Origin: a virus
Length of the DNA stretch: 33,483 nt
Reading direction: 5' to 3' (one strand)
Virus record (IMG/VR): IMGVR_UViG_3300007734_000597
Coordinates: 1-33,483 of that record
Part shown: positions 67 to 33,450 of the stretch, piece after piece
How positions within the stretch are numbered: position 1 is the stretch's first letter
How the letters are laid out: every line of letters begins with the position of its first letter
Notes under the pieces: generated by a model
Told to the model about the DNA's origin: nothing
Databases searched by the model: none
The model's input: the letters and a program-made list of their open reading frames with translations, nothing else
Made by a program: the position numbers and the translations under genes

Positions 67-555
67 ATGGGACAGCGTGGGCCAGCACCTCAGCCGACTC
101 GGTTGAAGCTGCTGCGTGGCGAAACGCGCCCAAGCCGCGTCAACTACCAGGAGCCGCTACCGGCTCGCACAACTTTCAGCCCTCCAGCTGATCTGAACGC
201 GGAGGCCCGCCAGATCTGGAACGAGGTGGTTGAGGCGGTCGCCCACACGGGGATGTTGACTGCCGCTGACCTGCATACGCTTCGCCTCTATTGCGAGGCA
301 GCGGTGCGCTACAAGGAGGCTGACCGGCTCTATGCCGAGACTGGCCCGCTCACGCGGGGACAGGCTGGCGAGTTGGTAAAGAATCCTTTACATCAGATCG
401 TTCGCGACAATGCGACCCTGATGCTCCAGCTCGCTGGGAAACTGGGCCTCACACCGGCTGCACGAAGCGGCCTGACAGGAGACCTAGATGCCCAAGCGAA
501 CTCGGCGGCAGCGAAACTGGACGCCCTCATCTCAGCAGCCCGCACCTCAAAATAG
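67..555 (+). CDS. terS: Terminase small subunit, P27 family
   Basis: A 162-residue protein resembling the P27-type small terminase subunit, which recognises phage DNA and hands it to the large subunit for packaging. The N-terminus is basic and low in complexity. The middle (about residues 40-110) is helical with a pattern usual for P27 proteins (ARQIWNEVVEAVAHTGMLT, then LRLYCEA). Near the end, the segment around LAGKLGLTPAARSGL matches the conserved C-terminal motif of the family. GGAG lies 7 nt before the ATG. It overlaps the large subunit gene by 68 nt, which supports coupled translation. The HNH nuclease at the other end of the window fits the usual HNH-TerS-TerL order if the ends are joined. 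Confidence 0.85.
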   Translation: MGQRGPAPQPTRLKLLRGETRPSRVNYQEPLPARTTFSPPADLNAEARQIWNEVVEAVAHTGMLTAADLHTLRLYCEAAVRYKEADRLYAETGPLTRGQAGELVKNPLHQIVRDNATLMLQLAGKLGLTPAARSGLTGDLDAQANSAAAKLDALISAARTSK

Positions 556-1987
556 CCAGGGGTCACAGGTCGCGGCGTTTATTGAGAACTTTTGCCGCTT
601 GACCAAAGGCGACGATGCTGGCAAGCAGATCGTCCTCAGGCAATGGCAGAAAGACCTCCTGACTGATCTCTACGAGCTGGACGAGAACGGGCTTCGGAAG
701 CATCGGCGTGCCCTGATTGGGCTGCCCCGTAAAAACTCCAAGTCGCTGCTCGGCGCTGGTATCGCCCTCTTCGGCCTTGTCGTGGATGAGGTCGGAGCCG
801 AGGTCTACGCCGTTGCGGGCGATCGCGCTCAGGCGCGGATCGTCTTCCGCGAGGCGGCTCGGATGGTAGAGCTAGACCCGATCCTCAGCCAGAGGTTGCG
901 CGTGATGCGCGATGTGATTGAGATGCCGAGCACCGGCTCCGTCTTTCGCGTCCTCTCAGCCGACGCCTCCCGAGCTGAAGGCTTGAACCCGAGCACGGTC
1001 GTCTTTGACGAGGTGCATATTCAGCCTGACGATCGGCTCTGGAACACGATGAACCTCGGTTCTGGTACACGAAAGCAGCCGCTGATCGTTGGCATCACGA
1101 CGGCTGGCAGCCGCACCGATAGTCGCGGGCAAGACACGGTGTGCTACAAACTTTGGCAATACGGGATGCGGATCAAAGCAGGCGAGATCGCAGACCCAAC
1201 CTTCTTCTTCCGTTGGCACGGAGCCGCAGACGGAGCCGATCATCGCGATCCTGCGGTGTGGGCGTCTGCCAATCCAGCCTTCGGCGACTTCCTCCATCCG
1301 TCCGACTTTGAGTCGGCGGTGCTCAGCATCCCTGAGGCCGAGTTCCGAACCAAGCGCTTGAACCAATGGGTGACCGCTGCGACTGGATGGCTGCCTAACG
1401 GGGCGTGGGATCGGCTCGCAGGCGAGCGCCAGATCCAAGATGGCGAGCAGATCGTGATCGGCTTTGACGGCTCGTTCAGCGGGGACTGTACCGCGATGGT
1501 CGCCTGCACGATGGACGGCTTTATCCAACCACTCGCCCTCTGGGAGCGCCCGCTTGACGACCCGCATTGGCAAGTGCCAATGGACGAGGTTGAGGCGAAG
1601 ATGTATGAGCTCTGCAAGCGCTACCAAGTGCGCGAGATCAGCGCCGACCCTTATCGCTGGGCACGCACGCTGCAAAAGTGGGAGACAGACGGCTTGCCCG
1701 TCGTGCTCTACCCGCAATCGCCGGCGCGTATGGTGCCAGCCTGTGCCGCCTTCTACGAGGCGGTCACGCAGGACACCCTCAGCCACAACGGGGACGCGGC
1801 AATGAGCCGCCACCTAGACAACTGCTCCGTCAAGGTTGACCGCTTCGGCCCTCGCATCGTCAAGGAGCACCGAGGCTCGCCTCGGAAGATTGACCTCGCG
1901 GTCTGCGCGGTAATGGCGTATGATCGCGCGAGATTCCACGCACAGGCACCAGCGGCACCTAAAGCAGCGGAGTTCATCACCCTATGA
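488..1987 (+). CDS. terL: Terminase large subunit (ATPase and nuclease)
   Basis: A 499-residue packaging motor. The ATPase half has a Walker A variant at residues 78-86 (GLPRKNSKS), Walker B with catalytic Glu at 171-175 (VVFDE) and a coupling motif at 202-208 (GITTAGS). The C-terminal RNase H-like nuclease shows acidic residues D327 and D333 (FDGSFSGD), D387 (ADPYRW) and D469/D479 near the end, as expected for cutting concatemers. Length is normal for HK97-type TerL. The start at 488 lies inside TerS; the first 25 or so residues are basic and low in complexity, so a downstream start is possible, but no better ATG is seen before the conserved region. The stop overlaps the next ATG (ATGA). Confidence 0.95.
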   Translation: MPKRTRRQRNWTPSSQQPAPQNSQGSQVAAFIENFCRLTKGDDAGKQIVLRQWQKDLLTDLYELDENGLRKHRRALIGLPRKNSKSLLGAGIALFGLVVDEVGAEVYAVAGDRAQARIVFREAARMVELDPILSQRLRVMRDVIEMPSTGSVFRVLSADASRAEGLNPSTVVFDEVHIQPDDRLWNTMNLGSGTRKQPLIVGITTAGSRTDSRGQDTVCYKLWQYGMRIKAGEIADPTFFFRWHGAADGADHRDPAVWASANPAFGDFLHPSDFESAVLSIPEAEFRTKRLNQWVTAATGWLPNGAWDRLAGERQIQDGEQIVIGFDGSFSGDCTAMVACTMDGFIQPLALWERPLDDPHWQVPMDEVEAKMYELCKRYQVREISADPYRWARTLQKWETDGLPVVLYPQSPARMVPACAAFYEAVTQDTLSHNGDAAMSRHLDNCSVKVDRFGPRIVKEHRGSPRKIDLAVCAVMAYDRARFHAQAPAAPKAAEFITL

Positions 1988-23712: not shown

Positions 23713-23881
23713 GTTCTGCGATGTCTGCGATGAGGCAGCGGAGAGGGTTTACGCCTTCGGCGCAGTCATCCTCGGACTAGACCTCCGCACCGGCGATCAG
23801 GTCGTCACCGAGCATAAGATCTGCATCGGCTGCCTCGGCGTCCTCGTCCAGCTCGTTCTAGACGATCAACTACCCCAATGA
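23681..23881 (+). CDS. Small zinc-ribbon protein
   Basis: A 66-residue protein with CDVC near residues 13-16 and CIGC near 48-51, a four-cysteine zinc ribbon. Its ATG lies 32 nt inside the preceding gene in another frame, and the Cys pattern argues that it is real. It is the last gene before the hairpin cluster and promoter region. Function unknown; it might bind nucleic acid or a protein partner. Confidence 0.6.
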   Translation: MVTVAKRRDPEFCDVCDEAAERVYAFGAVILGLDLRTGDQVVTEHKICIGCLGVLVQLVLDDQLPQ

Positions 23882-23891
23882 CTATGCCGTT

Positions 23892-23905
23892 CCGCCTTCG
23901 GGCGG
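23892..23905 (+). terminator. Short GC hairpin with UUCG loop
   Basis: CCGCC (23892-23896), TTCG loop, GGCGG (23901-23905). A stable C(UUCG)G hairpin 11 nt after the last stop of the late half. No U-tract follows. Confidence 0.55.
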
Positions 23906-23913
23906 GCGGCCCA

Positions 23914-23963
23914 GGGCTGGAGGGGAGCGGGCGCGAGCCTCCCGCGACCCTCTCCTCCAGCCC
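23914..23963 (+). terminator. Large hairpin, probable end of the late transcript
   Basis: Arms 23914-23927 and 23950-23963 pair over 14 bp with one G-U pair; inner CGGG/CCCG may add 4 bp. No U-tract follows, as is common in high-GC bacteria. Together with the neighbouring hairpins it forms the strongest terminator-like cluster in the window. Confidence 0.7.
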
Positions 23964-23970
23964 GCCAAGA

Positions 23971-23996
23971 CCCCTATTTCGTGCGTGAAATAGGGG
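23971..23996. promoter_or_regulatory. 10-bp perfect dyad abutting the early promoter
   Basis: CCCCTATTTC (23971-23980), six-base spacer GTGCGT, GAAATAGGGG (23987-23996). It ends one base before the -35 box at 23998. It could be a third terminator hairpin or an operator bound by a dimeric regulator; the position favours an operator. Candidate binders encoded here are the winged-helix protein at 28218 and the HTH protein at 29698. Confidence 0.6.
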
Positions 23997-23997
23997 G

Positions 23998-24026
23998 TTG
24001 ACAGGGGGAGGGTACGGGCGTATCTT
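23998..24026 (+). promoter_or_regulatory. Early-operon promoter TTGACA-17-TATCTT
   Basis: Perfect -35 TTGACA at 23998-24003, 17-bp spacer, -10 TATCTT at 24021-24026. It is the best vegetative-sigma promoter I see in the window, placed right before the replication-side operon and right after the late-side terminators. Predicted start of RNA near 24032-24035. Confidence 0.8.
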
Positions 24027-24045
24027 ATGGGCATAGGGAGACCAA

Positions 24046-24516
24046 ATGGACTCCCGGGAAGGGGGGCTTATGAACGAAGCAGAGCAGTTTGCAAGGCTTC
24101 ATACGATGAGCAAAGCTGAACTAATCAAGTGGCAAAAGTATTTGGCAAAAAACATTGCTGAGATTGAAAGCTCTATTGCCGACACGGATAAGTGGAGCGA
24201 ACGAAATCCGGAGTGGAAAGATTGCAACGAGGCCACCAACCACAGGCGTCGCGCGCGGATGGCAACACGCCGCCGCCGACTAGCACAGATTGAGCGCAGG
24301 ATTGCAGAGATTGAGTCCGGCGCAGCGATCTCAACCGAGCCCGTGGCTGAAGACAAAGAGGCTAAGCGAGTGTGGCGCCGGCTCGTGGCACAAAAGCGTG
24401 AAGCATTCCTTTACGCAGAATACTCACGAAAACACGGACTTCGCTCTGAAGGTTTTGAGAAGCGCATCGCTGAGATTGAGGCAGAAATGAAGGCTATTGC
24501 AGGAGGACAAAAGTGA
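24046..24516 (+). CDS. Early coiled-coil protein of unknown function
   Basis: The first gene of the early operon, 156 residues from ATG 24046 (GGGAG 5 nt upstream) or 148 from ATG 24070 (AAGG 7 nt upstream); I cannot decide between them. The protein is highly charged and helical (KAELIKWQKYLAKNIAEIE, then RRRRLAQIERRIAEIE, then EKRIAEIEAEMKAI) with a repeated IAEIE heptad-like motif, so a coiled coil is likely. Codons are more A/T-ended than in late genes. First-expressed phage genes often target host functions; this one is a candidate on position only. Confidence 0.7.
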   Translation: MDSREGGLMNEAEQFARLHTMSKAELIKWQKYLAKNIAEIESSIADTDKWSERNPEWKDCNEATNHRRRARMATRRRRLAQIERRIAEIESGAAISTEPVAEDKEAKRVWRRLVAQKREAFLYAEYSRKHGLRSEGFEKRIAEIEAEMKAIAGGQK

Positions 24517-31945: not shown

Positions 31946-32481
31946 GACTAGACAGCCTCGTCACCTGGTTCAGAGAGCATCAAGATACGCTCCCGATCGT
32001 GATCCATCAGATCAACCAAATGGACGACGGCGGGGTGCCGAAGTGGACGGGGGACTTCGCCACCTACCTCAACGCCGCAGCTCACGCCACCTTCTCGGAG
32101 CAGGAGGAACGCAGGGTGCACGAGGGCACGCAGGCGGAGCAGGCCACGCTGATGCAAGTGACCGTCCAGCGCTACAAGTACCCAATGCACGCGGCCCTGC
32201 ATACCCTCAAGCGCTGCCGAGGCAGGGCGGGCGAACCGAAGCCTCACGAGATCGGCACGATGCTCATCGCCACCAGAGGCAATCTGACCGCTGCCCAAGA
32301 GTGGCTGATGCGGAAGTATCCCCTGATGCTGCATCGCGAGATCTGGCTTGAGGCAGCGGAGCGCACGCTCAATCTCCTGCACGAGCGATACACGGAGACT
32401 CCGCGTGCTATTGTGCGCGGCAAGTCCGAAGCCCAACTGAATGCCGAGGTGACCGATGCCCAAGCACCCGACAAAGCCTGA
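31942..32481 (+). CDS. Hypothetical helical protein
   Basis: A 179-residue protein of unknown family, mostly helical and soluble. It begins LDSLVTWFREHQDTLPIVIH, has a Cys/Arg-rich patch in the middle (LKRCRGRAGEPK) and a C-terminal helical stretch with WLMRKYPLMLHREIWLEAAE. ATGA overlap with the methyltransferase and 26-nt overlap with the next gene place it firmly in the operon. No metal or catalytic motif recognised. Confidence 0.65.
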   Translation: MRLDSLVTWFREHQDTLPIVIHQINQMDDGGVPKWTGDFATYLNAAAHATFSEQEERRVHEGTQAEQATLMQVTVQRYKYPMHAALHTLKRCRGRAGEPKPHEIGTMLIATRGNLTAAQEWLMRKYPLMLHREIWLEAAERTLNLLHERYTETPRAIVRGKSEAQLNAEVTDAQAPDKA

Positions 32482-32863
32482 CAAGTACGCGGCTCTGGAG
32501 GCGTATGTAGCCTCCTGTTTGCCCCTCCTTCGGCTTGAGAACTGGAAGATCACGATCCTGAACGATGTTGCACCTGAGGATCGCTACGCCGACATTGAGC
32601 CGAACGATCAGGCACAGACCGCCAACCTTCGCGTCGGCAACCTATTCTGGGCGCAGAAACCGCACGAGCAGCGCCTGACGATCGCCCACGAGCTCGTCCA
32701 TCTGCACCTGTGCCGACTAGATCAGGCCGTAGATCGGCTTGAGCCGGTGCTCGGCTCAGCTGCGTGGGCACCGTGGGCTGGCGTCTACGAGGATGCCTAC
32801 GAGCGCGCAACAGACGCAATCGCTGATGTTCTCGCGCCGCAGATCCCCGAGCCAAATCTCTAA
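32456..32863 (+). CDS. ImmA/SprT-like zinc metallopeptidase
   Basis: A 135-residue protein with the zinc motif HELVH at residues 78-82 (LTIAHELVHLHLC), with E79 as general base and E116 (YEDAYERATDAIAD) as a likely third ligand. The pattern fits ImmA/IrrE-type or SprT-like peptidases. ImmA enzymes cut phage repressors after DNA damage, but no repressor gene is seen here, so a host target or host-derived repressor is possible. It is the last gene of the early operon. Confidence 0.75.
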   Translation: MPKHPTKPDKYAALEAYVASCLPLLRLENWKITILNDVAPEDRYADIEPNDQAQTANLRVGNLFWAQKPHEQRLTIAHELVHLHLCRLDQAVDRLEPVLGSAAWAPWAGVYEDAYERATDAIADVLAPQIPEPNL

Positions 32864-33126
32864 CACAAGATCTGGCACAGATTCGGTAAATAAACCGCAA
32901 CATCGTGTATAGTCGCGCACAAGGCGCGACCGCAGCAGGACGCACGCGCTGGGCATAAGACTCGGCAGATGGAGTCGCCCTGAAATACAATCTGCCCGCG
33001 AGCCTTGTATTGGCTCGCCCTTTGGCTACATCGCGGGACGGTGCACAGTTCACGCGGTTAGGCGCTAGTACCTGATGCTAGTCGGCGGCACGGCACCGTA
33101 AGGTCGCCTTGACGGAGGTAGACCCC
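32864..33126 (+). ncRNA. Gene-free stretch with dense complementary segments (candidate structured RNA)
   Basis: No ORF is supported in these 263 nt. Perfect 7-bp complements: 32912-32918 with 32924-32930; 32964-32970 with 32990-32996; 32984-32990 with 33005-33011; 32998-33004 with 33012-33018; 32995-33001 with 33031-33037; 33038-33044 with 33093-33099. The second pairs the loop of the hairpin 32959-32963/32972-32976 with a downstream strand, and the third pairs the loop of 32998-33018 with an upstream strand, so both are pseudoknot-like. TATAGT at 32908-32913 resembles a -10 box but no good -35 was seen. RNA function is not proven; cis-acting packaging DNA is the main alternative. Confidence 0.5.
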
Positions 33127-33450
33127 GTGCTCAAACCTTGCCTGACTTGTGGCGTTCCAACAGGGGCCACCCGTTGCCCAGCCCACACCCTACCCAAGCA
33201 GGATCGCCTCAACAGACCGAGCCGGCAAGCGCGCGGCTACGACGCTGCGTGGCAGCGACTGAGCACCCAGCTCCGAGTGGAGCGACCGTGGTGCGAGATG
33301 TGCGGACGCAGCCAGACGCGCCTGACCGTTGACCACATCGTTCCGATGTCGCTGGGCGGCAGCAACGATCGCAGCAACCTGCGCGTTCTCTGCCTTGATT
33401 GCCACAATCGCTACGGCGCAACGAAGAGGCACCCCAGCATACTGGGGTAG
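33127..33450 (+). CDS. HNH endonuclease (terminase-associated)
   Basis: A 107-residue HNH nuclease. GTG at 33127 is chosen for GGAGGT at 33114-33119, 7 nt upstream; a TTG at 33109 is an alternative. N-terminal Cys/His knuckle C5, C8, C17, H20; then HNH: CEMCG (C56, C59), VDHIVPMSLGG (D69, H70), N84, and CLDCHN (C89, C92, H93, N94). Small HNH proteins beside TerS-TerL are needed for cleavage or packaging in many HK97-like phages. If the window ends are joined, it lies just upstream of TerS. Confidence 0.9.
   Translation: MLKPCLTCGVPTGATRCPAHTLPKQDRLNRPSRQARGYDAAWQRLSTQLRVERPWCEMCGRSQTRLTVDHIVPMSLGGSNDRSNLRVLCLDCHNRYGATKRHPSILG

Follow-up and report, generated by a model that had tools for sequence, protein, structure and literature searches.

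Near the right end of a viral genome of 33,483 nucleotides (IMG/VR record IMGVR_UViG_3300007734_000597, analysed at full length and referred to as the window), a stretch without genes precedes the gene of an HNH endonuclease, and the question was whether it encodes a functional RNA and, if so, what that RNA does. An original prediction, made from the letters of the window, had read it as a structured RNA with two chained pseudoknots that might switch through a competing helix, and had proposed a part in packaging (as RNA or as a cos/pac DNA site), control of terminase expression or an independent small RNA. The gene-free stretch is real, extending on the + strand from 32864 up to the HNH start. 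The predicted surplus of perfect 7-bp complements was confirmed, with the count corrected from six to eight in 263 nt (dinucleotide shuffles 1.8 ± 1.3, n = 500, 0/500 reaching eight). The minimum folding energy of the region was ordinary (z −0.6 to −1.2), so that comparative data, not energy, had to decide the case for a structured RNA. By these data, the locus holds a structured + strand RNA of about 180 nt (32920–33098), which forms a new family and is maintained by selection in two phage clades.

Relatives and sequence conservation

Homologues were searched for in viral contigs, using the HNH protein, DNA patterns and TerL as queries. The searches gave 14 distinct core sequences from uncultured freshwater actinophage-type contigs in two clades: clade 1 with the window, L002–L005, L029, L034 and L035, and clade 2 with L063, L066, L069, L092, L094 and L100, the TerL of clade 2 being about 75% identical where comparison was possible. 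The core (32949–33098, 150 nt in the window) was nearly constant in length among relatives, at about 149–150 nt, and was 91–94% identical in L029 and L034 versus 67–68% for HNH (L029: core 94%, HNH 67%, upstream gene 74%). At every complete locus HNH follows the RNA immediately, and the loci searched yielded neither a second copy nor one standing by itself.

The RNA was absent from phiPsal1, from phiC31 and from L084 (TerL 59%), in which HNH is present. Since the nearest outside relatives (L084, phiPsal1) have HNH and terminase without the RNA, late operons of this sort can in general do without it. Weak pattern-selected matches in L097, L112 and L105 (12–14 bits versus at least 137 for intact members) were discarded as chance, a pattern search of host genomes returned a single chance match only, and annotated phage records held no similar DNA for either clade.

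Secondary structure and covariation

From 5′ to 3′, the RNA consists of hairpin P1, an H-type pseudoknot (P2/P3), hairpins P4, P5 and P6 and a conserved tail (Table 1). Alignment A3 was scored for P2–P6, including the pseudoknot helix P3, against 500 shuffles and a slid-partner control. Paired cells amounted to 93.8% (shuffled mean 81.4%; partners slid, 33–42%), 14 pairs showed two-sided change, with 70 such cells versus 24 in shuffles, and the covariation score was 0.391 versus 0.170; 0/500 shuffles reached any observed value. On a tree built from the neighbouring upstream gene, 21 two-sided compensatory events were counted (P1 4, P2 2, P3 7, P5 3, P6 5) and only two breaking changes, both in P5; P4 was excluded on account of its one-base shift in register between the clades. 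P1 came to light when every stacked pair of columns was scanned without bias, P6, P3, P1 and P5 ranking on top, and was then checked by hand. Read as + strand, the helices contained about 50 G-U cells; A-C cells, which are G-U on the other strand, numbered 7, and the RNA is therefore read in the direction of HNH. With this many compensatory changes across relatives the fold is strongly supported: that it is real we hold to be virtually certain, and its assignment to the + strand is very highly probable.

Table 1 Features of the RNA locus and of the adjoining genes (positions in the window)
Feature	Position	Strand	Description
−10 element TATAGT	32908–32913	+	TANNNT in all relatives; putative promoter
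Probable transcription start	32919–32920	+	6–7 nt past the −10 in all sequences, just before [CT]AAGG/P1
P1 hairpin	32923–32950	+	32924–32928 with 32945–32949, plus G32923-U32950
P2, pseudoknot stem 1	32951–32980	+	32951–32954 with 32977–32980; 32959–32963 with 32972–32976
P3, H-type pseudoknot	32964–32996	+	loop 32964–32970 with 32990–32996
P4 hairpin	32998–33018	+	32998–33004 with 33012–33018
P5 hairpin	33030–33058	+	33030–33035 with 33053–33058; 33036–33039 with 33048–33051; bulge 33052
P5 apical loop	33040–33047	+	GGUGCACA, self-complementary centre GUGCAC
P6 hairpin	33064–33082	+	33064–33070 with 33076–33082, loop CCUNA
3′ tail	33087–33098	+	GGCACGGCACCG, conserved in alignment A3, without supported partner
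Linker	33099–33126	+	28 nt, holds HNH Shine-Dalgarno GGAGG 33114–33118
HNH endonuclease, 107 aa	33127–33450	+	Pfam HNH 2.2e-14; PHROG 144 (longer 33109 reading)
Terminase small subunit TerS	67–555	+	PHROG 83, 4.9e-33; joined to HNH via cos
Terminase large subunit TerL	488–1987	+	PHROG 9, 1.1e-116

P1 appears as GGCGCG/CGCGCU, GGCAGA/UCUGCU and GACAGA/UCUGUU, with four pairs changed on both sides and none broken. The outer four base pairs of P2 are invariant, GACUC/GAGUC is replaced by AGCU/AGCU and GCCU/AGGC, and clade 2 has C-A in place of the closing C-G pair. P3, with GGCAGAU/AUCUGCC exchanged for GGCAGGU/ACCUGCC, GGCAAGU/ACUUGCC or GCGACAU/AUGUCGC, is 100% paired, without a break on the tree. 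A hairpin loop thus pairs with a downstream single strand and both stems, P2 and P3, covary, as in an H-type pseudoknot, the A-rich loop 3 (UGAAAUACA) lying between the two. P4 is a hairpin in both clades (GCGAGCC/GGCUCGC in clade 1; GGGAC/GUCCC, register shifted by one base, in clade 2), P5 keeps its bulge in all sequences, and P6 is 100% paired as CUAGUA/UGCUAG, ACUAGCG/CGCUAGU, ACUGCGA/UCGCAGU or GCUGACG/UGUCAGC.

The three pairings named in the original prediction are all exact complements in the window, and they fared differently among the relatives. The loop-closing pseudoknot, which is P3, was paired in 14/14 sequences with 4/7 pairs changed on both sides, so that a structured RNA with one pseudoknot stands. 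The second, chained pseudoknot (33005–33011 with 32984–32990) falls away, with 55% of cells paired and zero compensatory change, and so does the competing helix (32995–33001 with 33031–33037; 68% and zero). Clade 2 lacks both, and some or most members of clade 1 break them, which leaves the switching idea unsupported; judged from the alignments, they are chance complements restricted to the window or to part of one clade. Three further pairings were rejected: 33038–33044 with 33093–33099, which fails comparison with the relatives; the hairpin 32912–32918/32924–32930, whose 5′ arm overlaps the −10, which occurs in clade 1 only and which excludes the covarying P1; and 32920–32926 with 33105–33111, which, judged by eye, is not kept in clade 2.

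Genome organisation

By TerL, the nearest known phages are Pontimonas phage phiPsal1 (46%) and the phiC31 group, which makes an actinobacterial host likely. Many relatives' contigs begin at base 1 of the window, others end at its last base (33483), and joint-spanning contigs carry 11 extra bases (CCGCGCGCCCC in L005, CCGCGCCGAAA in L063); on these grounds the window is taken as a complete genome, cos to cos, and the 11 bases are probably a 3′ overhang lost in sequencing or library preparation. It follows that the RNA and HNH at the right end adjoin TerS-TerL at the left end only after circularisation. The predicted position next to HNH-TerS-TerL hence holds directly for HNH and, for the terminase genes, in the circular form, the HNH-TerS junction across cos being seen in L005 and L063. 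In some relatives only (L002, L004, L029 and L034), HNH and TerS are separated by insertions of about 0.9–2 kb that carry extra ORFs.

The early genes run from a TTGACA/TATCTT promoter near 24000 to the gene preceding the RNA, which is thereby placed where late transcription should begin. The intergenic stretch 23860–24046, with a strong hairpin followed by this promoter (TTGACA-17-TATCTT, 23998–24026), is the probable late terminator and early promoter. The gene preceding the RNA (32456–32863) codes for a 135-aa protein that has a HELVHLH zinc-peptidase-like motif and matches nothing in Pfam or PHROG; both clades preserve the synteny of gene and RNA. A terminator-like hairpin at 33431–33448 overlaps the HNH stop codon; it is absent in clade 2, unlike the T-rich stretch beside cos, which both clades keep.

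Putative promoter, linker and HNH start

TANNNT is the actinobacterial −10 pattern. An element of this form occurs in all relatives (TATAGT, TAGACT, TAATCT, TATTCT or TATCCT in 15 hand-aligned sequences), always 8–9 nt ahead of P1 and with all three middle letters varying; no −35 element was recognisable upstream of it. The transcription start was put near 32920 because of this conserved −10 at fixed distance. Clade 2 loci (L066 and others) have a dyad, GTGAAGA-N13-TCTTCAC, just upstream of the RNA and overlapping the −10 region, which shows a compensatory change of its own (AAGA/TCTT to AAGG/CCTT) and is possibly the operator of a late regulator.

The most likely start codon of HNH is GTG 33127; the alternative TTG 33109 was rejected, as clade 2 has no such codon. 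The distance from the core to the GTG is 28 nt in both clades despite a linker identity of 32–52%, and the diverged linkers align across clades with no gap, or at most a compensated one. In L029 and L034 the linker with its Shine-Dalgarno sequence is 93% conserved where HNH is at 67–68%. No terminator was found between core and HNH, and no ligand-like or Shine-Dalgarno-sequestering helix was conserved among the relatives.

Candidate functions

Among the roles originally proposed, control of HNH/terminase expression and an independent RNA are the live options. Fold, strand and conserved linkage are observed, and we infer a promoter, a late-leader role and action in cis: the late HNH-cos-TerS-TerL transcript would have this structured RNA as its 5′ leader, a reading based on sequence comparison to which we give an even chance. 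It is favoured because the distances to the promoter and to HNH are both held and the RNA was never found alone. Transcription would start at the −35-less actinobacterial-type TANNNT promoter at the boundary between early operon and HNH and would yield the RNA first, then HNH, the closed cos site, TerS, TerL and the structural genes. The nascent fold would act in cis on late-operon expression. It may do so by engaging RNA polymerase, in the manner of a put or Q-leader elongation/antitermination element, or by governing how readily ribosomes or a phage protein reach the HNH start, which lies 28 nt further on. No conserved terminator or second element for the leader to act on was found, the hairpin at 33431–33448 being rejected as an antitermination target since clade 2 lacks it. 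HK97 gp74, an HNH protein, stimulates cos cleavage (PMC9410871), for which reason HNH dose and timing could merit control.

Chance complementarity in GC-rich sequence would agree with the ordinary folding energy and does account for the second pseudoknot and the switch helix; it is refuted for P1–P3, P5 and P6, where 0/500 shuffles match the covariation and pairing drops sharply with slid partners, and for the RNA as a whole it can be neglected. Scarcely more credible is a DNA element, whether cos/pac or operator repeats: the genome terminus maps 385 bp away and the clade 2 dyad overlaps the −10, but the terminus lies across the HNH gene, an insertion of about 0.9 kb parts the element from cos in L004, and the pseudoknot covariation and the G-U pairs on one strand are signals of RNA, which leaves the proposed cos/pac DNA site unsupported. 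A packaging RNA working with HNH, TerS or TerL at cos, like phi29 pRNA, would suit a cos phage with an 11-nt overhang and an RNA adjoining the gene of an HNH endonuclease, given the activity of gp74. This role is improbable, as the RNA is missing from other phages whose terminase belongs to this family, and protein alone suffices for in vitro packaging by the HK97-type motor (PMC9410871). The model of phi29-type pRNA (RF00044) matched neither this genome nor any control genome.

A somewhat stronger candidate, still unlikely, is an independent phage RNA that acts in trans, its 3′ end being formed near 33098 by processing or termination, and that is possibly a homodimer through the P5 loop. Known trans-acting RNAs are no more elaborate than this core, but no terminator follows the core and its linkage to HNH at 28 nt is strict. 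All 14 sequences have a P5 loop with a self-complementary centre, which occurs in three variants (UGCA, GCGC and, with G-U, GCGU); the palindrome sits at the exact middle of the 8-nt loop, the best of all positions scanned. In the window it is GUGCAC, the same palindrome as in the HIV-1 DIS (PMC7357161), and the phage RNAs ROOL and GOLLD form homo-oligomers (PMC12286853). Compared with its sister L004, L005 has exchanged the greater part of its eight loop bases and kept the stem intact, and the new loop is again self-complementary (GGCGUC with two G-U pairs); the change has the appearance of a local replacement, or of strong selection acting on the loop. The palindrome comprises 6 bp in the seven GUGCAC sequences and in L005 (two of them G-U), but clade 2 keeps only 4 strong pairs. 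As it was noticed post hoc (rough chance estimate about 1%), the palindrome serves as a lead only, and from these sequences a kissing dimer of the P5 loop is possible. A new class of phage RNA that dimerises via this loop and acts in trans, within the HNH/terminase apparatus for cos cleavage and packaging or as an RNA scaffold, is improbable as well; it would concern cos phages, for which an RNA part had not been suspected.

Relation to known RNAs

Rfam release 15 gave no match at gathering score and none at E ≤ 10 for 32850–33200, and no tRNA or tmRNA was found. The family is new, and its general type, that of structured phage leaders or noncoding RNAs, is a known one. In T4 gene 32, an mRNA leader with an H-type pseudoknot stands upstream of the gene of a nucleic-acid-binding protein. 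The cis leader proposed here resembles it as a phage mRNA leader with such a pseudoknot upstream of a gene, and differs in its extra helices, in the distance of about 130 nt from the pseudoknot to the start codon and in showing no sign that HNH binds its own leader.

HK022 put RNA is likewise a phage leader at or near the transcription start, and the proposed cis action on late-operon transcription recalls it. The put RNAs comprise about 70 nt in two stem-loops, lie in early operons and act on E. coli RNA polymerase (PMC9378689), whereas the present RNA, with P1–P6 over about 180 nt and an H-type pseudoknot, stands at the early/late boundary of an actinophage and shows no positive sequence likeness; its size and shape do not fit a put-type antiterminator, a class that suppresses termination through the β′ zinc-binding domain. 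Phi29 prohead RNA, which associates with the prohead/ATPase ring, is also encoded near packaging genes and a genome end and has loop-loop potential, but it uses two non-palindromic complementary loops (PMC7357161) and another fold. ROOL and GOLLD are ornate RNAs that are likewise phage-encoded, pseudoknotted and covarying, but their length is several hundred nt and their place is close to tRNA islands (PMC12286853). A type III toxin-antitoxin RNA, with tandem pseudoknotted repeats ahead of a ToxN-like toxin, was rejected, there being no tandem repeats here and, downstream, a packaging-type HNH; an IscB/HEARO omega-RNA system was rejected because the 107-aa protein has the HNH domain only, without RuvC and PLMP.

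Absent from Rfam, the RNA offers a candidate promoter, a fold and a pseudoknot at the head of the presumed late transcript, beside a cos-cleavage nuclease. To our knowledge, few structured RNAs in phages are supported by covariation, and we know of no earlier RNA part in an HK97-type cos system. If the RNA joins packaging, it would be the first such part; should it control elongation, actinophages would have in it a late switch made of RNA only.
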